DNA from: Thomasclavelia sp. | Lineage (GTDB): Bacteria; Bacillota_I; Bacilli_A; Erysipelotrichales; Coprobacillaceae | Reading direction: 5' to 3' | DNA length: 35,783 bases | Assembly (NCBI RefSeq): GCF_017889095.1 | Contig: NZ_JAGHEW010000015.1 | Location: forward strand, 1 to 35,783 | Shown here: in pieces, positions 5,971 through 18,075 of the stretch | How positions within the stretch are numbered: the stretch's first letter is position 1 | Layout of the letters: every line of letters starts with the position of its first letter | Made by a program: the position numbers and the translations under genes | Notes under the pieces: model-generated | What the model was told of the DNA's origin: nothing | Database searches by the model: none | The model's input: only the letters and a program-made list of their open reading frames with translations

Positions 5971-7173
5971 ATGGCACGTGAATGTATCCATAAATATTTA
6001 GAAGAACATCAAAGTAATTATCAAGGAAAATATCGCTGTCATAGCTGTGTACAAACAAAGCGTTTTGAACACAAGTTTCATTATTATATTCGAGATATTC
6101 AGTTTCGAGAAATTAATGTTTTTGTAACGGTTGACTATTCTGGTGATGAAGTGAAAACGACATTTTCAGTTGATCTTCATGAACAGGAACAAGAATATAT
6201 CACTAAGGATGCTTTAAAACAAATTTTATATTTTAATAAATATAGAACTATTTTACATTGTCATGTTTTTCAACATTATGTCAATAATAAAAATACTGCT
6301 AATATGTTAGAACCGCTTGATTATCGTAATATATTAGACTACTTAGAATACCATCGGGGTACTAATCAGGAAACAGTTGATGAATTTTATGAGTTTTTTA
6401 TGCCTTATTTACAACGTTTAATCAGTAATGGAAATTATCAAAAATATATGGATTCCATGAATTTAATATTAGATAAGATTCTTTATGAATATGAATGGGA
6501 TGGAACAACGGCAAAGTATTTAGATACCCAGTATCAATATCATCTTTATTATTTCAGATTAATTATTAAAGATGTCTTTAAACATCTAGATGGTTTCTAT
6601 AACAAAGTTAGAGAACCTTTACTTGAAGCAATATGGCGTTTGTGTAATTCACAGCGATTTGCATTTGCAATTATGACTGATTTTGGAAATCTAGTTTTAT
6701 CACATTATCGAATTACAAAAACAATTTTTAATTATATTGATAATCGAATCCATGAAGAAGGTAAAACTAGTAATATTGTGATTCCTTATCTAAAAGCAAT
6801 TTTTGAAAATGATATTGATGGATTTCAAGATGCTTCAATGGATGTAATTCGTTTTGTAATGAATGATATGCTTACTTTCGCTAATCATGATTTACAACTG
6901 GCAATCGGTAATTCAATAGTACAAAGTGAAGGGTATGATTTATTGATCAATTTATTTTCTAAAGATTATAATACGTTTATTTTTGTTTGCTTCCCAATTT
7001 CTACTTTCCCGCCTGAATATAAAGAGGTTATTCGAGAAAATCTCGAAACAGCAATTCGTTTTTATGCTGGTAGAATGGAGCATGAGGAATATCGTTTAAG
7101 CTCATTTGAGCAAGTTTGTAACATCAATCGTTTATTGATGGAAAATTATAAGGAGTATGGAAAACATGAATAA
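5971..7173 (+). CDS. Unrecognised protein with N-terminal Cys/His cluster
   Basis: I do not recognise this 400-residue protein. The N-terminus has Cys5, His7, Cys23, His24 and Cys26 (pattern C-x-H, then C-H-x-C), which could bind one zinc ion. The rest is soluble, rich in aromatic residues, and appears largely helical with no signal peptide or membrane segment. A beta-rich part may lie at about 45-85. No catalytic motif was recognised. The start has a perfect AGGAGGTG site at 5957-5964. It overlaps the downstream membrane-anchored pseudo-hydrolase gene by 8 bases, so the two products are probably made together and may interact. Confidence 0.85.
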   Translation: MARECIHKYLEEHQSNYQGKYRCHSCVQTKRFEHKFHYYIRDIQFREINVFVTVDYSGDEVKTTFSVDLHEQEQEYITKDALKQILYFNKYRTILHCHVFQHYVNNKNTANMLEPLDYRNILDYLEYHRGTNQETVDEFYEFFMPYLQRLISNGNYQKYMDSMNLILDKILYEYEWDGTTAKYLDTQYQYHLYYFRLIIKDVFKHLDGFYNKVREPLLEAIWRLCNSQRFAFAIMTDFGNLVLSHYRITKTIFNYIDNRIHEEGKTSNIVIPYLKAIFENDIDGFQDASMDVIRFVMNDMLTFANHDLQLAIGNSIVQSEGYDLLINLFSKDYNTFIFVCFPISTFPPEYKEVIRENLETAIRFYAGRMEHEEYRLSSFEQVCNINRLLMENYKEYGKHE

Positions 7174-8071
7174 AAACAAAAAAAGATTAGCTACGTCATT
7201 AGCAGTAGTTGCGGGGATCGCATCGAGTGCTGGAGCACTTAATGCTTTTGCCAATAAAATGGTTAAAGCAATGCTTTATCGTCATCATAAAGAAGATGAT
7301 AAGCCTAGTATTTTGGAAACAAAATACGCAAGTATTAATGTCTATTTAAAAAATTATCAAGGAATTAGATTAAGAGGTATTTTAATTGAAGAACAAAATG
7401 CTGATACTACTTTGGTAATTTTACATCCTTTTGCTTTAGAAGCTAAAGATATGACACTATATGTTCCATTTTTTAAAGAACGTTATCCAAAATGGAATAT
7501 CTTGTTAGTGGATGCTTGTGGCCATGGTCAAAGTGATGGTTATATTCGTGGTTTAGGAATTAAAGATGTTCGTGATTTAATTAGCTGGAATCGTTTTATC
7601 CTAAAGACTTATGGTAAAGATCATAAAATTGTATTATATGGAAAAGAAGCTGGTGCAAATACGATTTTAAAAGCTGCCAGTGAACATTCACTAAAAAATG
7701 TCAAAGCGATTATTAGTGATGGTGCCTATACTAGCGTTTATGATATATTAGGATATCGCTTAATTAAAGATTATAAAGTGCCTAAGTTTCCAACGATTCA
7801 ATTAATCAAGGCAAAAATCAAAAAAGAAATTAAGATCAATATTAAAACAAGTTATGTTGACATGGTTAAGCACAATGATATCCCAACTTTATATGTGCAT
7901 ATGAAAGAGGATGATTTTGTACCATTAAAAATGGTTTATCCATTATACAATGCAAATCGGGGCAGCAAAGTTTTGTTTGTTTTAAAAGATGAACGATATT
8001 TATATGAACTAACAGAAACTGATGAGTTTAAAAACACAATGACTAACTTTATAACAAAATACGTTAAATAA
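7166..8071 (+). CDS. Membrane-anchored alpha/beta-hydrolase-fold protein lacking the catalytic Ser
   Basis: This 301-residue protein has an N-terminal basic and hydrophobic segment (about 1-28), read as a signal anchor, followed by an alpha/beta-hydrolase domain. Fold landmarks are visible: the TTLVILHPF strand near 81, DACGHGQSDG near 115, and ISDGAYTSVYD after the elbow. The nucleophile elbow, normally G-x-S-x-G, reads G-K-E-A-G, so Glu161 replaces the serine. The late acidic residue is kept (KEDDFVPL), but the C-terminal His segment reads LKDERYLYEL with no histidine. It is therefore probably a non-catalytic relative. Start 7166 is preferred because AAGGAG (7150-7155) is 10 bases away; the ATG at 7157 is only one base from it. 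Confidence 0.8.
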   Translation: MNKNKKRLATSLAVVAGIASSAGALNAFANKMVKAMLYRHHKEDDKPSILETKYASINVYLKNYQGIRLRGILIEEQNADTTLVILHPFALEAKDMTLYVPFFKERYPKWNILLVDACGHGQSDGYIRGLGIKDVRDLISWNRFILKTYGKDHKIVLYGKEAGANTILKAASEHSLKNVKAIISDGAYTSVYDILGYRLIKDYKVPKFPTIQLIKAKIKKEIKINIKTSYVDMVKHNDIPTLYVHMKEDDFVPLKMVYPLYNANRGSKVLFVLKDERYLYELTETDEFKNTMTNFITKYVK

Positions 8072-8089
8072 TAATAGGAGGATTGGGAC

Positions 8090-9538
8090 ATGTATTTTAA
8101 ACAAAGTAACGGTTTCCCTAAAGATTTTTTATGGGGAAGTGCATCAGCAGCTTATCAAGTAGAAGGTGGCTGGGATGCTGATGGTAAAGGGGTTTCTAAC
8201 TGGGACAAGTTTGTTAGAATACCTGGAAAAACATTCAAAGCAACAACAGGTGATAAAGCAGTAGATCACTATCATCGCTATAAAGAAGATATTGCTTTAA
8301 TGGCCAAACAGGGATTAAAAACATACCGTTTTTCAATTGCCTGGACAAGAATTTATCCTAATGGAACTGGGGAAATCAATGAAGCCGGATTACAGTTCTA
8401 TGATGATTTAATTAATGAATTATTAAAATACGGAATTGAACCGATGGTAACTGTTTATCATTGGGATATGCCACAAGCTTTAGAAGATAAATATCATGGC
8501 TGGGAAAATCGTCAAATCGTTGATGATTATGTAAATTATGCGACAACTTTATTTAAACGATATGGAGATCGAGTTAAATATTGGATCACAATGAATGAAC
8601 AAAATATCTTTACGGGACATGGCTGGTTAGAAGGAATGCATCCACCAGGAAAAGTAGATGATCAAAAAACTTTCTATCAAGTGAATCATCATGCTAATAT
8701 GGCTCACGCTAAAAGTGTTTTAGCTTTAAAAGAATTATGGCCAGAAGCTAAAGTGGGTGCCAGCTTTGCTTATAGTCCAAGTTATGCGATTGATAATAAA
8801 CCAGAAAATGCCATGGCTAAAGCTGATTATGATGATTTAAAAAATTATTTCTGGATGGATGTTTATGCTTATGGTAGATATCCACGCGCAGCTTTAACTT
8901 ATTTAAAATCTCAAGGGATTACCATTGAAATGGAACCAGAAGATCAGGCTATTTTAAAAGAAGCAGCTCAATTAATTGATTTTATGGGAGTAAACTATTA
9001 CCAAACAACTACAGTTGAATTTAATGATATTGATGGTGTTGGTACAACTCATGAAATGAATAATACCGGTAAAAAAGGAACGGCAACAGTTCAAGGCGTT
9101 CCGGGATTATATAAAAATCCACCAAATGTCAATTTACCAACGACTGACTGGGATTGGACGATTGATCCAATGGGAATTAGAATGTGCTGTCGAGAAATAA
9201 CGTCACGCTATGATTTACCAATCGTTATTAGCGAAAATGGTCTAGGGGCATTTGATAAATTAGAAGATGGTAAAGTCCATGATCCATATCGAATTGATTA
9301 TTTAAGAGAACATATTAAAGAACTTAAAAAAGCGTGTGATGATGGATGTCGTGTTATTGCTTATTGTACTTGGTCTTACACTGATTTATTAAGCTGGTTA
9401 AATGGATATCAAAAACGTTATGGTTTTGTTTACGTTGATCGTGAAGAAGATGAAAATAGCGGAACGTTAGATCGTTATGAAAAAGATTCATATTACTGGT
9501 ATCAAAATGTAATTAAAACTAACGGTGAAGAATTATAG
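8090..9538 (+). CDS. GH1 6-phospho-beta-glycosidase (phosphogalactosidase-like pocket)
   Basis: This cytoplasmic family 1 glycoside hydrolase (482 residues) cleaves beta-glycosides. The acid/base is Glu170 in TMNEQN and the nucleophile is Glu382 in ISENGLG. The N-terminal [19 protein letters not shown] is a GH1 hallmark. Phosphate-pocket residues Ser435, Lys442 and Tyr444 (in SWLNGYQKRYG) are those that bind the 6-phosphate in LacG-type enzymes. Trp436 follows the serine as in LacG 6-phospho-beta-galactosidases; the other two GH1 proteins here have Thr. This hints at galactoside-6-phosphates, but specificity is inference. No PTS gene is in the window. An AGGAGG site lies upstream; it follows the pseudo-hydrolase by 18 bases. 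Confidence 0.9.
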   Translation: MYFKQSNGFPKDFLWGSASAAYQVEGGWDADGKGVSNWDKFVRIPGKTFKATTGDKAVDHYHRYKEDIALMAKQGLKTYRFSIAWTRIYPNGTGEINEAGLQFYDDLINELLKYGIEPMVTVYHWDMPQALEDKYHGWENRQIVDDYVNYATTLFKRYGDRVKYWITMNEQNIFTGHGWLEGMHPPGKVDDQKTFYQVNHHANMAHAKSVLALKELWPEAKVGASFAYSPSYAIDNKPENAMAKADYDDLKNYFWMDVYAYGRYPRAALTYLKSQGITIEMEPEDQAILKEAAQLIDFMGVNYYQTTTVEFNDIDGVGTTHEMNNTGKKGTATVQGVPGLYKNPPNVNLPTTDWDWTIDPMGIRMCCREITSRYDLPIVISENGLGAFDKLEDGKVHDPYRIDYLREHIKELKKACDDGCRVIAYCTWSYTDLLSWLNGYQKRYGFVYVDREEDENSGTLDRYEKDSYYWYQNVIKTNGEEL

Positions 9539-9564
9539 GAATAGCCAAATAGCTATTCCTTTTT
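9537..9564 (+). terminator. Intrinsic terminator after the first GH1 gene
   Basis: A 9-bp perfect stem AGGAATAGC/GCTATTCCT (9537-9545 with 9552-9560), a 6-base loop and a T run. It overlaps the stop codon. Confidence 0.9.
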
Positions 9565-9619
9565 GTCTATATAAATTATTTATTTTGAAAATTATAATAA
9601 ACAAAGATAGTCAATAAAA

Positions 9620-10822
9620 CTATTTGTGATTAGGAATCAAGATCTTAGCACTAAAAAAGAGATTATCTTGATCAAAAAATAATTTACCATGATACTTTTC
9701 AATGATTTTTTGACAAGAAATAATTCCTAAACCATGAAAATCTTTATTTTCCTTAGAAGTCAATAAATGAGGATTATTGTTTAAAATAGCTTCATTAATT
9801 GTATTTTTAATTGTTAAATAGAAAAACTCCTCAATTATCCCAGCACTAACCATTACTTGACATTTAGGATTAGGTTTACAGTTTTCAAGCGCATTTTGAA
9901 ATAAATTACCAAAGACAATAAATAAATCTTCATTATCAATCGGAATTAATTCTAAGTTATCACAAGTAATTCTAATATTTTTTTCTTCAATTAACTTAGA
10001 TTGTAAAGCAATACAATAATCAATCACATCATTTCCACTAATGACAGTTCTTTGAAAATTGTTTAACTCATTTAATTGACTTAAAATAATTTTTCGACAG
10101 TTTTGATAATGTTGTTGATCTAATTCATATAATAGATTGTTTAAAAGATGATGAAGATCGTGTTTTATTTTTTTTGTTTGTTTAATTGTTTCTTTTGATA
10201 GATAATAATTTTTCTTTTTCTCTTCTAAAACATTTAGTAATAACTGTTTTTGGTATAAAAGTTTAGACTGTTGATATGATTCTTTAAATAATGCAATGAT
10301 AATTATTGTAAAAACAACGATTATCATTAACATTAAACTAAGATCATGGTTACTTAATAATAAGTCTAAATATAAAGAACTGGTTAAAATTAAAAAGATA
10401 AAAGCAAAATTAATAAAAAAGTTGAAATATAAATGTAAACACAGTTTATTAGTTGTCAGAGTAAATAAAAAACATATCCGACTAAGCATAATAAAATAAC
10501 TGAAATTTAAATCATTAAAGTTAAACATAATTGATTCTAATAACATAAATAAATTAAAGACAATGGTCAAAATAGTAATTAAATAATCTTTTAGTTTTAA
10601 GTGCTTTAATAATAGCGAAAGATAAATATCCATGATCAGTAAATCAATCATAAAATAAAAGATATTTAGTTTTAATAAATTAGCTAGATTGATGGAAATA
10701 AATGAAATAATAGTAAACAGGCATAAAAGAAAATAATTCTTTTTTAAGTAAATTAAATTAATTAGAAAAAGAGTAGTAAATGAAGCTAATAAGTTAATTA
10801 TCAAAGTTAAATAATTGCTCAT
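9620..10822 (-). CDS. AgrC-type sensor histidine kinase (GHKL family)
   Basis: This 400-residue membrane kinase has about six hydrophobic segments in the first 180 residues, a linker helix, then the catalytic part. The phospho-accepting His221 lies in KHDLHHLLNN, the HD-type motif of peptide-sensing AgrC/ComD kinases. The N-box reads FGNLFQNALENC (305-315) and the G2 loop FHGLGI at 362-367; a DxGxG box is absent, as is common in this class. It overlaps the response regulator gene by 4 bases (ATGA) and is co-transcribed with it. No AgrB/AgrD pair lies nearby, so the signal may be an external peptide or antibiotic rather than a self-made pheromone. Confidence 0.88.
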   Translation of the reverse strand: MSNYLTLIINLLASFTTLFLINLIYLKKNYFLLCLFTIISFISINLANLLKLNIFYFMIDLLIMDIYLSLLLKHLKLKDYLITILTIVFNLFMLLESIMFNFNDLNFSYFIMLSRICFLFTLTTNKLCLHLYFNFFINFAFIFLILTSSLYLDLLLSNHDLSLMLMIIVVFTIIIIALFKESYQQSKLLYQKQLLLNVLEEKKKNYYLSKETIKQTKKIKHDLHHLLNNLLYELDQQHYQNCRKIILSQLNELNNFQRTVISGNDVIDYCIALQSKLIEEKNIRITCDNLELIPIDNEDLFIVFGNLFQNALENCKPNPKCQVMVSAGIIEEFFYLTIKNTINEAILNNNPHLLTSKENKDFHGLGIISCQKIIEKYHGKLFFDQDNLFFSAKILIPNHK

Positions 10823-11511
10823 AATAACTTACTAATATAATTAAAACGCGACTCTTTTACTAATTTACTTTGACTACGTGCGATATTAAAATAATTTATC
10901 CCTATTTTAACCATGTTACTAGTATATTCATCAACATATTGCCAATTGATTAAACGTGTGTTGCTGATCCGAATAAAGCAGCAATTATTGATCTTTTTTT
11001 CTAGATTACTTAATTTTTCTCTAATTCGATAGCTGTTATTAATTGTTGTAATGATGCAATAATGGCGATCACTTTGGATATATTTAATTTGATTTAAGAG
11101 AATTTTTTGAAAGTCACTATTGATTTTTATGATCAAAGTATTATTTTGCTGTTCTAGTTTTTCGACTAATTCTTGAATTAATCGTTTGATCATTATAGCT
11201 AATTCATTTTTTTTAATAAACTGATAAGGATGAACACTATAAGCATTATAAAACTGTTCATCATGATTACTAATGAAAATAATCATAGTGTTTTTATGTT
11301 GTTTTAAATACTCTCTTGCAAGATCAATTCCATTTTTAGGCATATCAATATCTAAAAACAAAACGTCATAGATTTGCTGTAAGTCAAACTGATCAACAGC
11401 GTTAAAACAAGCAATTTGATAAGCTAATTGATATTTTTTGATTTCATGATTGATCGCTTCATAAATTATCATCAAATCTTCTTTATTATCATCAATAATG
11501 GCAATTTGCAT
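10819..11511 (-). CDS. LytTR-family response regulator (AgrA-like)
   Basis: This 230-residue regulator has a receiver domain (1-115) with acidic Asp7/Asp8, phospho-acceptor Asp54 in LFLDIDMP, Ser81 and Lys100. A LytTR DNA-binding domain follows (about 125-220), recognisable from IKYIQSDRHYC and the later RISNTRLINWQYV. It is the AgrA/ComE/BlpR class partner of the downstream kinase. A minus-strand promoter and an AGGAGG site (11519-11524) lie upstream. The divergent transporter operon is the obvious candidate target. Confidence 0.9.
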   Translation of the reverse strand: MQIAIIDDNKEDLMIIYEAINHEIKKYQLAYQIACFNAVDQFDLQQIYDVLFLDIDMPKNGIDLAREYLKQHKNTMIIFISNHDEQFYNAYSVHPYQFIKKNELAIMIKRLIQELVEKLEQQNNTLIIKINSDFQKILLNQIKYIQSDRHYCIITTINNSYRIREKLSNLEKKINNCCFIRISNTRLINWQYVDEYTSNMVKIGINYFNIARSQSKLVKESRFNYISKLL

Positions 11512-11530
11512 AACTATTCCTCCTAATTTA

Positions 11531-11560
11531 ATTATATTAAATTCTAAGCAAACCCGTCAA
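11531..11560 (-). promoter_or_regulatory. Promoter of the two-component system
   Basis: On the minus strand TTGACG (11560-11555), an 18-base spacer and TATAAT (11536-11531). The predicted start of transcription falls almost on the ribosome binding site, so the leader would be very short. Confidence 0.6.
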
Positions 11561-11612
11561 ATAAATACAGTAGTGATTCTTGCCATAAAAATACCAAAGT
11601 TGCCAACAATAT

Positions 11613-11640
11613 TGTTATCTATTAACGATTAGTTATCATT
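11613..11640 (+). promoter_or_regulatory. Candidate promoter and direct repeat before the ABC operon
   Basis: TTGTTA (11613-11618), 16 bases and TATCAT (11635-11640). A direct repeat, GTTATCTATTA at 11614 and GTTATCATTA at 11632, overlaps both promoter boxes. It is a candidate operator for the divergent LytTR regulator, although the 18-base period is shorter than the roughly 21 bases usual for AgrA-type sites. Confidence 0.4.
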
Positions 11641-11674
11641 AAATTAAGTAGTAGAAAATAATAAGGAGATAATC

Positions 11675-12454
11675 ATGAAAATAGTTAAAAAGATTGGTAT
11701 TTTAATAATCATTGTTATGGTTGGCTGGTATTCATTAAATAAGTATATGACATCAGGAGTTGAAGAGGATTTTTTTACCGATATTTACTTATATTTATGG
11801 AATGGAAATTTAAATATTGCTTTTTTCTTGGTTTTTTTGCTTGGTTTTCAAGAACTTTGTGTAATTGACAGTTATCAATTAGTAAATAATGGCTTTGACA
11901 AAAAGATGATTGTTCGTCTTGGATATTTAAAATATTATTTTCATCAATTTAAAACTATAATTGTAAAAAGTATTGGCTATTATTTATTGATCCATGTAGT
12001 TTTTTTGTTTAGTGAATTAATGATTTACGGCTACCAGGAAGTTAGTGAGCTAGATAAGTTTAAATATCAGTTATTTAACGAGAATCCGTTAAGTAATTTA
12101 ATTATTTATATTCTTTTATCAGCAATCGGTGTTGCTATTTTTAACTGCTTAATTTTTTCTTTTAGTACACTAATAAAAAATAAATATGTTTTTCGTTTTT
12201 TACCATTAATATTTTTATTTGCCAGTATTTTACTTTCAGCACTAATTAGTCCATTAATTCAAGGAGTCTTGGGGTATGATGAGTTAGTTAAAACGATAGC
12301 TTTAAGTTTAATGATTATCAGCATTCTTGAACCAGGAATGGTATTTATGCGTTATGGTTATTTATCATTTAGTCTAGCTGTTATTTGGTATTTAATGATT
12401 ACAGGTTTAGTTATCTTGGTTACTAAAAAGATGAGGCAACGTTATGATGAATAA
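11675..12454 (+). CDS. ABC-transporter membrane protein, six segments
   Basis: This 259-residue protein has about six hydrophobic segments (near 6-20, 47-65, 95-118, 138-165, 172-195 and 230-250), the topology of an ABC-2-type permease such as LanE/LanG or BcrB. A basic stretch RLGYLKYYFHQF at 81-92, followed by IIVKS, loosely resembles the cytoplasmic Arg...Lys loop of that superfamily. The start follows an AAGGAGAT site at 11663. It overlaps the next membrane gene by 11 bases. It is probably the main permease of the transporter energised by the ATPase at 12962. Confidence 0.75.
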   Translation: MKIVKKIGILIIIVMVGWYSLNKYMTSGVEEDFFTDIYLYLWNGNLNIAFFLVFLLGFQELCVIDSYQLVNNGFDKKMIVRLGYLKYYFHQFKTIIVKSIGYYLLIHVVFLFSELMIYGYQEVSELDKFKYQLFNENPLSNLIIYILLSAIGVAIFNCLIFSFSTLIKNKYVFRFLPLIFLFASILLSALISPLIQGVLGYDELVKTIALSLMIISILEPGMVFMRYGYLSFSLAVIWYLMITGLVILVTKKMRQRYDE

Positions 12455-12965
12455 GCTAAAAAGAATGGTTATTTATTTACTGGTATCCTATCTATCCATT
12501 TTTTATTTGTTTAAGCAAAGTGCCATTGAAAATATTGATTATTTAGTTATTACCGCTAGTTTATTTGCCTTTTTAATTAATAATTTATTTTTGTCTTTTC
12601 AATTCTTTGACATTAATCAATTTTATGCAATTAATGTATTTATAATAATTAGAATATCTAAAAATGTTTTTAGGAAAATGGTCGTAAAAAGAATCTTTGA
12701 TAATACGTTAATAGTACTTATCTTTGCTTATATCATTCCTATTTTTACTTTTTATGATCGTTTATATAGTTTGATGACTACTCTAATTTATCTAATGATT
12801 CTTTATCTTTTGTTTTGTATCTATGATTTATTGATTATTGTTTCTTTTGAAATCAATAATAATATCTTAAAACTATTATTAAGATTTCTGCCGTTTATAT
12901 TAAATATCATGATCCAAATTAATTTTTTTCAATATTTTTATCAAATAATAGGAGGAGTTTTATGA
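12444..12965 (+). CDS. Small ABC-associated membrane protein
   Basis: A 173-residue, very hydrophobic protein with about five membrane segments and no recognised catalytic motif. Its central loop RISKNVFRKMVVKRI at 70-84 matches, with the same spacing, a loop of the 159-residue protein at 13539 (R-L-N-K...M-I-I-K-R). The two therefore appear to be paralogues and look like half-size ABC-2 permeases. It starts inside the previous gene, with a GAGG site upstream and a second ATG three bases on. It overlaps the ATPase gene by 4 bases (ATGA). Confidence 0.7.
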   Translation: MMNKLKRMVIYLLVSYLSIFYLFKQSAIENIDYLVITASLFAFLINNLFLSFQFFDINQFYAINVFIIIRISKNVFRKMVVKRIFDNTLIVLIFAYIIPIFTFYDRLYSLMTTLIYLMILYLLFCIYDLLIIVSFEINNNILKLLLRFLPFILNIMIQINFFQYFYQIIGGVL

Positions 12966-13564
12966 TCAAGATTAAAAACGTAACTAAACAGTTTCATAAT
13001 AATTTAGTATTAGATAAAATAAATTTAGATATTGAAGAGGGAGCATTAGTTAGGATAGTTGGTCAAAATGGCTGTGGCAAATCAACGTTATTAAAAATAT
13101 TAGCGGGGTTATTAAAAGCAGATGATGGAAAAATTACTTTTGATAAATCAAAAAATATTGGAGCAGTAATTGAAAATCCGGCATTTATTGAAAATGAAAC
13201 ACTAGAATATAATTTAAAGTTTTTATATGAATTGAAAAATAAATTCGATTATGATAAAGTGAACAAACTTTGCCAATATTTTAATCTAGATTTAAAATCA
13301 AAAACTCTAATTAAAAAATATAGTTTAGGGATGCGTCAAAAAGCAGCTATTATTCAGGCCGTTATGGAAGAGCAAAATATTATTTTATTAGACGAACCAA
13401 CTAGAGGACTAGATCAAGCAAGTATACGACAGTTTAATCAATTAATTGATCAGTTGCATCACCAAAATAAAACGATTATTATCTGCGCTCATGATGGAGT
13501 AGATGCAATAAAGTTTACCCAAGTATTAAAGTTAGAAAATGGAAAAATTAGTAAGATATCGTAA
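12962..13564 (+). CDS. ABC transporter ATPase with E-loop, LanF/BcrA-like
   Basis: This 200-residue ATPase is shorter than the usual 230-300 of the LanF/BcrA group, because it ends soon after the H-loop. Walker A GQNGCGKST is at 34-42, the signature SLGMRQK at 121-127, Walker B ends in Asp144-Glu145 and the H-loop is His177. In place of the Q-loop Gln there is Glu71 in VIENPAF, an E-loop as known in lantibiotic-immunity ATPases (LanF) and related bacitracin transporters. A GGAGG site lies upstream. It overlaps the following membrane gene by 26 bases. Likely role: expelling a peptide antibiotic from the membrane; the substrate is unknown. Confidence 0.88.
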   Translation: MIKIKNVTKQFHNNLVLDKINLDIEEGALVRIVGQNGCGKSTLLKILAGLLKADDGKITFDKSKNIGAVIENPAFIENETLEYNLKFLYELKNKFDYDKVNKLCQYFNLDLKSKTLIKKYSLGMRQKAAIIQAVMEEQNIILLDEPTRGLDQASIRQFNQLIDQLHHQNKTIIICAHDGVDAIKFTQVLKLENGKISKIS

Positions 13565-14018
13565 ATACACTTTTTTAATTGTTAGTTTGATAATTAGGCT
13601 TATTATTTATGGGATAACTAATGATAATTATCAACGATATTTATATTTAACTCAGGATTGTCCCCGTTCTTTAGTTGATTTTGCCATCATGTCTTTATTA
13701 TTAATCGTAGAGATTATTTTTATCATTAATTATGTTCTAGATTATCTTAATATCGAATTATGGGTGTTACTTAGATTAAATAAACAAGAATATTTAATGA
13801 TGATCATTAAACGAGTTTTATTAGTAAATGTTTTGTTGATGCTAGCGAGTAGTGTAATTATTTTATTGATGAAAGTGAATTTTGTTTATTTATTAATTGA
13901 TCGGTTGGTTTTATTATTTTTTTCAATGATAAGTACATTAATTTTAATCAAATATCAAAGAAATATTTGTTATATTTTTTTATATTTGATGATGATTATT
14001 TTCCGGTTATTATATTAA
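13539..14018 (+). CDS. Small ABC-associated membrane protein, paralogue of 12444
   Basis: A 159-residue hydrophobic protein with about four membrane segments (near 10-25, 48-70, 93-112 and 118-157). The loop RLNKQEYLMMIIKRV at 79-93 aligns without gaps to the 12444 product. The ATG lies 26 bases inside the ATPase gene and has no clear ribosome binding site, so expression probably depends on translational coupling. It is the last gene of the operon. The presence of a third small membrane subunit is not typical of LanFEG systems, which use two. Confidence 0.65.
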   Translation: MEKLVRYRKYTFLIVSLIIRLIIYGITNDNYQRYLYLTQDCPRSLVDFAIMSLLLIVEIIFIINYVLDYLNIELWVLLRLNKQEYLMMIIKRVLLVNVLLMLASSVIILLMKVNFVYLLIDRLVLLFFSMISTLILIKYQRNICYIFLYLMMIIFRLLY

Positions 14019-14053
14019 AAAGAAGAATTTATCTGTTTAAAGATAAATTCTTC
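14017..14053 (-). terminator. Terminator of the 14063-15475 GH1 gene
   Basis: A 12-bp perfect stem (14022-14033 with 14042-14053) with an 8-base loop. The T run lies on the minus strand, so it mainly serves the GH1 gene; it may also stop the converging ABC operon. Confidence 0.85.
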
Positions 14054-14062
14054 GCTTATTAA

Positions 14063-15532
<1,470 letters not shown>

Positions 15533-15694: not shown

Positions 15695-15979
15695 ATGAAA
15701 GAAAAATACAAAGAAGATGCTAAGATCTTTAAAGCACTTTGTGACGAAAAAAGATTATGGATTCTTGATTTATTAAGTGATGGTGAAAAATGTGCCTGTG
15801 TATTAATTGAAAAAACTGGAATAGCTCAATCAGCATTGTCTTATCACATGAAAATCTTAGTTGAATCAAAGATCGTAAAAAGTCGTCAAGAGGGTAAATG
15901 GACTCATTATAGTTTAGATGCGAAAGGTATTGAAAACGCTAAAGAACGTTTGAATGAAATTACTAAAAGTGTTTTATAA
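15695..15979 (+). CDS. arsR: ArsR-family metalloid-responsive repressor
   Basis: A 94-residue winged-helix repressor of the ArsR/SmtB family. The recognition region TGIAQSALSYHMKIL lies at 41-55. Cys33 and Cys35 in EKCAC, at the start of the DNA-binding helix pair, match the C-x-C site (ELCVC in classical ArsR) that binds As(III)/Sb(III) and releases the protein from DNA. It leads a metalloid operon and probably represses itself and the downstream genes through the ATCAAA-N4-TTTGAT dyads. Ribosome site AGAGGG at 15686. Confidence 0.92.
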   Translation: MKEKYKEDAKIFKALCDEKRLWILDLLSDGEKCACVLIEKTGIAQSALSYHMKILVESKIVKSRQEGKWTHYSLDAKGIENAKERLNEITKSVL

Positions 15980-16009
15980 ATAAAGTCATATTAATGGCTT
16001 TTATTTATC
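15976..16009 (+). terminator. Imperfect hairpin between arsR and the permease
   Basis: A stem of roughly 12-13 bp with one G-T pair and one bulged T around an ATTA loop, with only a broken T run. It may reduce read-through from arsR; the third operator follows at once. Confidence 0.4.
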
Positions 16010-16017
16010 ATCAATAC

Positions 16018-16033
16018 ATCAAAAAAATTTGAT
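16018..16033 (+). promoter_or_regulatory. ArsR-like operator 3, before the permease
   Basis: A perfect dyad ATCAAA-AAAA-TTTGAT between arsR and the permease gene. I see no convincing promoter here, so it could be a roadblock site or mark a weak second promoter. Confidence 0.6.
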
Positions 16034-16057
16034 ATGTAATAGGAGGTATTAATTAGC

Positions 16058-17056
16058 GTGATTTTAAGTTTTATTCAAGATCAGTTATTAGGAATGAAGT
16101 GGTTAAATGAGGTTATTGGTAATTTTTTAACTATGTTAGGTCTTGATATTTATAGTCATTTAGGAAGTAGTATTCAGTTTTTTATTTATGATGTAACTAA
16201 AATAACGATTTTGCTTTGTTTACTGATTTTTATTATTTCATATATTCAAAGCTATTTTCCCCCAGAAAGAAGTAAACAAATATTAGGTAAGTTCAAAGGA
16301 ATTTGGGCCAATATAATTTCTGCATTATTAGGCACAGTAACTCCTTTTTGTTCATGTTCATCAATACCATTATTTATTGGCTTTACAAGTGCCGGTTTAC
16401 CATTAGGTGTAACTTTTTCGTTTCTTATTTCTTCACCAATGGTGGATATTGGCAGTTTAGTATTGTTGATGAGTATTTTTGGTATCAAGGTTGCCATTGT
16501 GTATGTAATTGTTGGTTTGGTGATTGCGGTAATTGGGGGAACGATCATTGAAAAAATGCGTATGGAAAAATATGTTGAAAAATTTATTTTAAATGCTAGC
16601 AGTATCGATGTTAATTCACCAGTTTTAACAAAAAGTGAGCGACTTCAATATGCTAAAGAGCAGGTTATTGATACCTTTAAAAAAGTTTTCCCGTATATTT
16701 TAGTAGGGGTTGCAATTGGGGCTTTTATTCATAACTGGATTCCAGAAACTTGGGTAGCGAGTATTTTAGGAGGAAAAAATCCTTTTGGTGTGATTCTGGC
16801 GACGTTTGTAGGTGTACCGATGTATGCAGATATTTTTGGAACTATTCCAATTGCCCAGGCGCTATTAGCTAAAGGGGCTCTGTTAGGAACTGTTTTATCA
16901 TTTATGATGGCGGTTACTACTTTGAGTTTACCGTCAATAATCATGTTGAAAAAAGCAGTAAAACCAAAATTATTAGCTTTGTTTATTGGAATATGTGTAA
17001 TAGGGATCGTTATTGTTGGTTATTTGTTTAATTTATTGGCATTTTTACTTATTTAA
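16058..17056 (+). CDS. arsP: DUF318/ArsP-type permease
   Basis: A 332-residue membrane permease with about eight segments. The core motif TPFCSCSSIPLFIGF at 95-109, with Cys98 and Cys100, is the signature of the DUF318 (UPF0718) family. That family includes ArsP, an efflux protein for trivalent organoarsenicals, and related metal exporters. The second half repeats the pattern around GVPMYADIFGTIPIAQAL. With arsR and arsC as neighbours, arsenic export is likely, but whether it takes organic or inorganic arsenic cannot be seen. The start is GTG, 11 bases after AGGAGG (16041-16046); the next ATG (16094) has no such site. Confidence 0.85.
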   Translation: MILSFIQDQLLGMKWLNEVIGNFLTMLGLDIYSHLGSSIQFFIYDVTKITILLCLLIFIISYIQSYFPPERSKQILGKFKGIWANIISALLGTVTPFCSCSSIPLFIGFTSAGLPLGVTFSFLISSPMVDIGSLVLLMSIFGIKVAIVYVIVGLVIAVIGGTIIEKMRMEKYVEKFILNASSIDVNSPVLTKSERLQYAKEQVIDTFKKVFPYILVGVAIGAFIHNWIPETWVASILGGKNPFGVILATFVGVPMYADIFGTIPIAQALLAKGALLGTVLSFMMAVTTLSLPSIIMLKKAVKPKLLALFIGICVIGIVIVGYLFNLLAFLLI

Positions 17057-17070
17057 AGGAGGCGGTAATT

Positions 17071-17328
17071 ATGAGTACAGTTTTTCATTTTAATATGGTT
17101 GTTGAAATTAATCAGTTATTAAAAGGTATGGGTATTGAATATTCTATTCATTCTGTAGGTGGTTGTACATGTAGTGGTTTGGAATTAAGGAGAGATGGTC
17201 ATGAGTATTCGAAAAATGAGATTATAAGGATTATTAATGATTATTTAGATGATAAATGGATGCGGGTCGTACCTGATAAAAATTATGAAATCTTAAATAT
17301 TGAATCAAAGTTTGATTATGAAAAATAA
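17071..17328 (+). CDS. Unrecognised 85-residue CxC protein of the ars operon
   Basis: I do not recognise this small soluble protein. It has a single Cys pair, Cys32-Thr-Cys34 in VGGCTCSG, and is predicted to be alpha/beta with a helix at about 48-60. A perfect AAAGGAGG site lies upstream. It sits between the permease and the thioredoxin-like gene with gaps of 14 and 12 bases, so it is part of the same transcript. The CxC could bind As(III) or a metal, or exchange disulfides, but this is only a guess. Confidence 0.8.
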   Translation: MSTVFHFNMVVEINQLLKGMGIEYSIHSVGGCTCSGLELRRDGHEYSKNEIIRIINDYLDDKWMRVVPDKNYEILNIESKFDYEK

Positions 17329-17340
17329 AAGGAGCGTAAA

Positions 17341-17658
17341 ATGAGATTTTTTAATAAAAAGAATGAATCTTGCTGTGGTAATTTTAATCAAGAAACAATA
17401 GTTAAAAATAATGAAAAAGGAATTAAGATATTAGGAACCGGGTGCAAAAAGTGTAATGCTTTACATACTGCAGTAAAAGAAGCAGTTGATGAGTTACAGC
17501 TAGATATAAAAATTGAACACATTAATGATTTTTCACAAATTGCAATGTATGGTATTATTAGTACACCAGCATTAGTTATTGATGAACAAGTTGTTTCCTT
17601 TGGCAAAGTTCTAAATAAAGATGAGGTTATAAAAATATTACAAACAAGGAGAAAGTAA
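17341..17658 (+). CDS. Thioredoxin-like small disulfide protein
   Basis: A 105-residue protein of the small glutaredoxin/thioredoxin-like group often found with DUF318 permeases. The active site is Cys35-Lys-Lys-Cys38 in GTGCKKC, and the cis-proline loop STPAL has Pro76. An extra Cys11-Cys12 pair lies in a short N-terminal extension. Its place directly before arsC suggests it is the electron donor for the arsenate reductase or handles As(III)-thiol exchange. An AAGGAG site precedes it, and the next gene starts at base 17659, directly after its stop. Confidence 0.88.
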   Translation: MRFFNKKNESCCGNFNQETIVKNNEKGIKILGTGCKKCNALHTAVKEAVDELQLDIKIEHINDFSQIAMYGIISTPALVIDEQVVSFGKVLNKDEVIKILQTRRK

Positions 17659-18075
17659 ATGAAAAAAGTGAAAGTTGCATTTATTTGTGTGCATAATTCA
17701 TGTCGTAGTCAAATCGCAGAAGCTTTGGGAAAACATCTAGCATCAGATGTTTTTGAAAGTTATTCTGCTGGGGTGGAAACAAAGCCTCAAATTAATCAAG
17801 ATGCTTTGCGTTTGATCAAAGAAATGTATGCTATCGATATGGAAAAAACACAGTATTCTAAATTGCTTAATGATATCCCTGAAGTAGATATTATTATTAC
17901 AATGGGATGTAATGTAGAATGTCCACATCTTCCTTGTAAGTATCGTGAAGATTGGGGATTAGAAGATCCAACGGGAAAAGATGATGCAGCATTTAAAGAA
18001 GTGATTTTAACGATTCATGAAAAAATTGAAAAACTATCAAAGCAAATTAAAAATAATTCTTTAAAGACTAACTAA
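17659..18075 (+). CDS. arsC: Arsenate reductase, thioredoxin-coupled (LMW phosphatase fold)
   Basis: This 138-residue enzyme reduces arsenate to arsenite in the cytoplasm. The phosphatase-type P-loop is Cys10-VHNSC-Arg16-Ser17 and the general acid is Asp103 in EDPTG. Resolving cysteines are Cys84 and Cys88 in MGCNVECP, the C-x3-C spacing of one ArsC subgroup rather than the C-x6-C of plasmid pI258 ArsC. Cys93 is an additional cysteine. The neighbouring thioredoxin-like protein is the likely reductant. A bidirectional terminator follows directly. Confidence 0.93.
   Translation: MKKVKVAFICVHNSCRSQIAEALGKHLASDVFESYSAGVETKPQINQDALRLIKEMYAIDMEKTQYSKLLNDIPEVDIIITMGCNVECPHLPCKYREDWGLEDPTGKDDAAFKEVILTIHEKIEKLSKQIKNNSLKTN

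Follow-up and report, generated by a model that had tools for sequence, protein, structure and literature searches.

A TCS-linked ABC transporter locus of Thomasclavelia with three permeases, a candidate protection module whose relatives accompany small secreted proteins of a new family

Transporters of the LanFEG type have an ATPase with a glutamate in the Q-loop (the E-loop) and two six-TM permeases, LanE and LanG. They are reported to expel bound peptide from the membrane (PMC5786555). In the NsrFE1E2G-XRK/Cpr-type LanFEG transporters of S. mutans and C. difficile, which have a resistance role, one ATPase is combined with several permeases under the control of a two-component system (TCS), and the S. 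mutans NsrFE1E2G is a Lan-type resistance transporter with three permeases (PMC5786555). In Lcn972-like loci, such as the pneumococcal scbABC, the gene of a Sec-secreted bacteriocin is followed by the genes of a membrane protein and an ABC ATPase (PMC11796350). A GHKL kinase and a LytTR regulator, together with AgrB and AgrD, are the components of agr quorum sensing. The phenol-soluble modulin exporter PmtABCD has two ATPases and two permeases. The E loop is reportedly the subject of Okuda 2010, as far as the title of that work tells.

We compared with these systems a locus in a 35,783-nucleotide stretch of Thomasclavelia DNA, the whole of which is called the window below (Table 1). Its six open reading frames (ORFs) have the positions given in the original prediction, which was also right about the kinase His221, the type of the regulator (Response_reg and LytTR domains in Pfam), Glu71 of the ATPase (within GAVIENPAF), and the overlapping operon of three membrane proteins and an ATPase. 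The kinase–regulator pair and the M1-M2-ATPase-M3 operon are divergent, with 163 bp between them, and adjacent genes of the unit overlap. The kinase and regulator types are common to the unit and to agr quorum sensing, but the target here is a transporter operon, and AgrB and AgrD were not seen among ORFs of at least 50 aa around the unit, which by that measure is not a complete agr system. As predicted, LanM and LanB were also missing among the nearby ORFs. Further downstream (15695-18075), genes of an ArsR-like repressor, a permease, a small thioredoxin-like protein and an arsenate-reductase-like protein stand in a row that, by reading, resembles an ordinary arsenic/metal resistance operon.

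Table 1. Positions of the unit and its parts in the window
Feature	Position	Strand	Basis
Kinase, membrane-bound histidine kinase of the GHKL (AgrC) type, 400 aa	9620..10822	-	PF14501 (GHKL ATPase domain) E 5e-19; His221 in KHDLHH
Regulator, AgrA/LytR-type, 230 aa	10819..11511	-	PF00072 + PF04397 (LytTR DNA-binding domain)
Putative LytTR-type site, TTGCCA direct repeat, 20-bp period	11580..11606	.	Divergent promoter region
M1, six-TM permease, 259 aa	11675..12454	+	Alignment, AF2 model, PmtD structural match
M2, short permease, about 5 TM, 173 aa	12444..12965	+	Alignment; profile match to M3
ABC ATPase, 200 aa, Glu71 (IENP) at Q-loop position	12962..13564	+	PF00005
M3, short permease, about 5 TM, 159 aa	13539..14018	+	Alignment; hydrophobicity
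Whole 4.5-kb unit, missing as one piece in sister species G036	9564..14062	.	Flank alignment

The ATPase was the only transporter part recognised by family models: M1, M2 and M3 match no family in Pfam or NCBIfam, and a PADLOC scan returned generic ATPase matches only. The best NCBIfam name for the ATPase is that of a lantibiotic protection ATPase, well below the cut-off; with the LanF model TIGR03740 it reaches 132 bits, as compared to the curated cut-off of 310. The E71-N72-P73 motif is invariant in 23 aligned homologues, and by Glu71 the protein has the E-loop described for LanFEG. The original prediction had taken this residue as a mark of LanF. However, a glutamate occupies the same position in several other, unrelated ABC ATPases of the window's genome, and we therefore rejected the E-loop as proof of lantibiotic immunity. 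As it is not diagnostic, the lantibiotic link is weak.

The number of permeases does not point to LanFEG either, since the window unit has three, with about 6+5+5 TM segments. The original prediction called this three-part design non-standard, but it has a precedent in NsrFE1E2G; the latter, however, has 2+4+6 TM segments and the F-E1-E2-G order, whereas in the window unit the ATPase is third. Because neither the TIGR03740 cut-off is reached nor the two-permease layout present, we did not file the unit as LanFEG. It could still be a Cpr/LanFEG-type transporter that confers resistance to lantibiotics or cationic peptides of competitors or the host and is functionally unrelated to the secreted proteins described below. 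Such a role would suit the E-loop and the NCBIfam name of the ATPase, the existence of TCS-driven Cpr-type systems, the one with three permeases included, and the lack of a secreted gene in the window's genome. Nevertheless, we consider it unlikely, as the LanF match is so far under its cut-off, the permeases are recognised by neither Pfam nor NCBIfam, and the relatives of the unit are accompanied by a gene of a secreted protein and not by lanthipeptide (lan) genes, as in Cpr-type LanFEG.

The three permeases appear to be related to each other to different degrees. Profile comparison connected M2 with M3 (93%, E 3e-7), while the relation of M1 to M2 was moderate (71%) and that of M1 to M3 weak and uncertain (31%). 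Family alignments revealed one invariant arginine in each: Arg81 in M1, Arg70 in M2 and Arg79 in M3. The AF2 model of M1, built from 3 sequences and of moderate confidence (pTM 0.66), has six TM helices, and Arg81 lies at the end of a short helix linking TM2 to TM3, which is predicted to occupy the place of a coupling helix. The best structural match of the model is PmtD (Z 14.0 over 223 residues, 11% identity), and NosY and ABCA/ABCG chains come next at the top of the list. Thus, as modelled, M1 has the ABC-2 fold, the six TM helices and the coupling helix of ABC-2/type V exporter permeases. PmtD is the closest solved fold for M1, and the Pmt ATPase is among the closest in the PDB.

The four-gene block is not peculiar to the window. 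The ATPase was found at E < 1e-50 in 18 of 43 family genomes, usually with M1 just upstream, and about 20 loci share the M1-M2-ATPase-M3 order, with similar overlaps. These loci come from many genera and include related gut Firmicutes, Lactobacillus, Bombilactobacillus and members of another family within the order. This conservation indicates that the three-part permease is real. The predicted linkage to Agr-type regulatory genes was also found in the genome collections: related regulators are divergent from the block in many loci, and related kinases adjoin it in G010 and G022. Two-permease homologues were absent from nearly all loci, the exception being three close relatives (L080, L081, L083) that have M1-ATPase-M3 without M2 and no adjoining secreted gene; these offer a natural test of the need for M2.

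Several other arrangements were noticed along the way. In G032 (L088), the M1-M2 part of one block seems to be disrupted by transposase-like genes beside the ATPase. The window's genome (G000) has further multi-permease E-loop ATPase blocks at L102 (G000:C251, 823-4847), L223 (G000:C177) and L227 (G000:C391), of which one starts with a different, 129-aa Sec-signal protein and one is divergent from another kinase–regulator pair, with relatives in L224-L226. A distant relative from another order (G218, L161 5217-8481) has a 146-aa secreted protein, three permeases and an LIEKP ATPase in one run; this secreted protein has no significant match to the family profile described below (E 2.9).

In nine or more loci, the block is adjoined by a gene of a protein of about 140 aa with a Sec signal, a link that, whether genomic or through LytTR control, is newly described here. 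The gene is directly upstream of M1 in L078, L079, L082, L087, L096/L101, L022, L120 and L140, and divergent from it in L139; the L021 copy is disrupted, with two stops and one frameshift. Most members of the family have a C-terminal EPSxxx...FSADN motif. The Lactobacillales proteins match a profile from which they had been left out, and still do so when the signal is removed (E 4e-9 and 6e-9), as compared to 0.002 at best for shuffled versions of both proteins. The family has no match in Pfam, NCBIfam or the PDB, and the Lcn972 models of Pfam and NCBIfam do not match its members, which are thus not lactococcin 972-like by that measure. An AF2 prediction from a single Lactobacillus sequence was uninformative (pLDDT 31). 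In the bee pathogen Melissococcus plutonius, the secreted gene and the block are on a large plasmid (L120, 6085-9081), where all the genes except that of the ATPase are annotated as hypothetical proteins only; the block order is the same, but the M3 gene is in two pieces.

In other genomes (L121-L128), the secreted gene is unlinked to the block and is divergent from a LytTR regulator, mostly accompanied by a GHKL kinase; the block of these genomes has a separate locus and is likewise divergent from a regulator. Two further LytTR-type regulators are often present beside the kinase–regulator pair at L121-L128, which suggests layered control. Among the 43 family genomes, the block was present in all 13 with the secreted gene and in 5 of the 30 without it (13/0/5/25; Fisher p = 2.3e-7, a value that overstates independence because the genomes are related). 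The genome of the window, which is 94% complete, has no homologue of the secreted family, and this we counted against our preferred reading, namely protection against a secreted protein of this family.

The association of the two could also be explained by a role of the transporter in production, that is, in the release, folding or processing of the co-encoded secreted protein, with the window copy as a leftover. Although this would suit an operon that starts with the secreted gene, we find it very improbable: the secreted proteins have Sec signals of their own, many genomes hold the block at a separate locus, and in the window the block is intact and free of stops even though no secreted homologue is there.

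The promoters provide a second connection between the block and the secreted family. LytTR sites are composed of 9-bp repeats with 12-bp spacers (PMC2766830). In fourteen TCS-linked intergenic regions of block and secreted-gene loci, some of them non-independent regions of related genomes, direct repeats peaked at 21 bp, with a z of 7.8 as compared to 3.0 for the 95th percentile of shuffles. This is the spacing of LytTR sites. The TTGCCA repeats of the window are located at 11580 and 11600, 20 bp apart, and the full element is present once in the window's genome. As a degenerate scan of this genome gave, besides the window site, weak matches at the level of chance (12 vs. 10 in controls), no second target was identified in it. 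In G029, where block and secreted gene are unlinked, their promoters share 27 of 29 bases, and none of 300 shuffles was as good. Outside G029, however, pairwise promoter likeness was weak, with 4-9% of shuffles as good, which was counted against the preferred reading, and common words such as TGTGCATTTTTA were individually weak. Judged from sequence, the kinase and regulator of the window, with a phased direct repeat as the putative target, fit an AgrC/AgrA-type TCS.

The history of the unit is that of a discrete element. It is located between two glycosidase genes, and the same pair is found without the unit in the sister species G036 (L243), where the matches of window positions 7000-9563 (84%) and 14063-15514 (88%) have only 4 bp between them; clearly, 9564-14062 was gained or lost as one piece. 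At the orthologous site of G041 (L214, G041:C25), the transporter is absent, and a frameshifted regulator, a kinase and a 153-aa four-TM protein are present. The latter, tested as a remnant of M1, aligned weakly with it and looks unrelated. In the tree, the window ATPase is sister to the secreted-protein-linked copy of L078 (67% identity, support 100/98), and both are placed in a larger group of secreted-protein-linked copies. A phage origin was also considered, but it gained no support, as there were no close relatives among viral contigs.

In several genera of one lineage, the RR-block has a fixed chromosomal place, which would fit a housekeeping function no less than immunity and was counted against the preferred reading. 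One may propose that transporter and kinase cooperate in sensing or in envelope stress, exporting a lipid or wall precursor, and that the secreted protein has a surface or signalling role and is not a killer. The vertical, syntenic inheritance of the RR-block and the uncharacterised nature of the secreted family would agree with that. We nevertheless regard this as a poor candidate, with little chance of being correct, given the patchy presence of the block within the window's genus, its clean absence at the G036 site, and the plasmid-borne copy in Melissococcus.

Taken together, these results make it reasonably probable, in our judgement, that the unit is an orphan TCS-controlled module of protection (immunity or resistance) against a new Lcn972-like bacteriocin family, the likeness being one of layout and not of sequence. 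The relatives' loci have the layout of Lcn972-like loci, a Sec-secreted protein with membrane protein and ATPase genes, but differ from them in the three small permeases; the window copy, in addition, is without a secreted gene. As its relatives adjoin the secreted family or share control signals with it, the window copy probably detects and clears a weapon of this kind, a bacteriocin-like protein, without making one. Of the original prediction, a unit for sensing and protection with a conserved three-permease transporter is supported, while its specific connection to lantibiotics and LanFEG is not, the partner in relatives being the Sec-secreted protein and not a lantibiotic precursor.

By analogy with Cpr/LanFEG or Lcn972-type protection systems, the unit may work as follows. 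The kinase would sense an extracellular agent, most likely a protein of the secreted family, and phosphorylate the LytTR regulator, which would turn on M1-M2-ATPase-M3 by binding to the repeat with 20/21-bp phasing in the divergent promoter. An ATPase dimer would then drive a permease made of the six-TM subunit and the two shorter, related subunits, and this pump would expel the agent from the membrane or free the agent's target. More tentatively, with rather less confidence than in protection as such, we suggest that the secreted proteins of about 140 residues could be new unmodified bacteriocins with a dedicated protection system of three permeases and a single ATPase, that paralogous LytTR systems could coordinate the separate producer and protection loci, and that the window could hold a free-standing resistance copy listening for the bacteriocin of neighbours.

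The combination of one ATPase type with three different permeases, each with its own invariant arginine, raises a question of ABC transporter architecture. If the preferred reading, protection against the secreted family, is right, common gut Firmicutes and bee-associated lactic bacteria carry an unrecognised bacteriocin-like family together with its protection pump, and the four-gene block would be a handle for finding more such systems.
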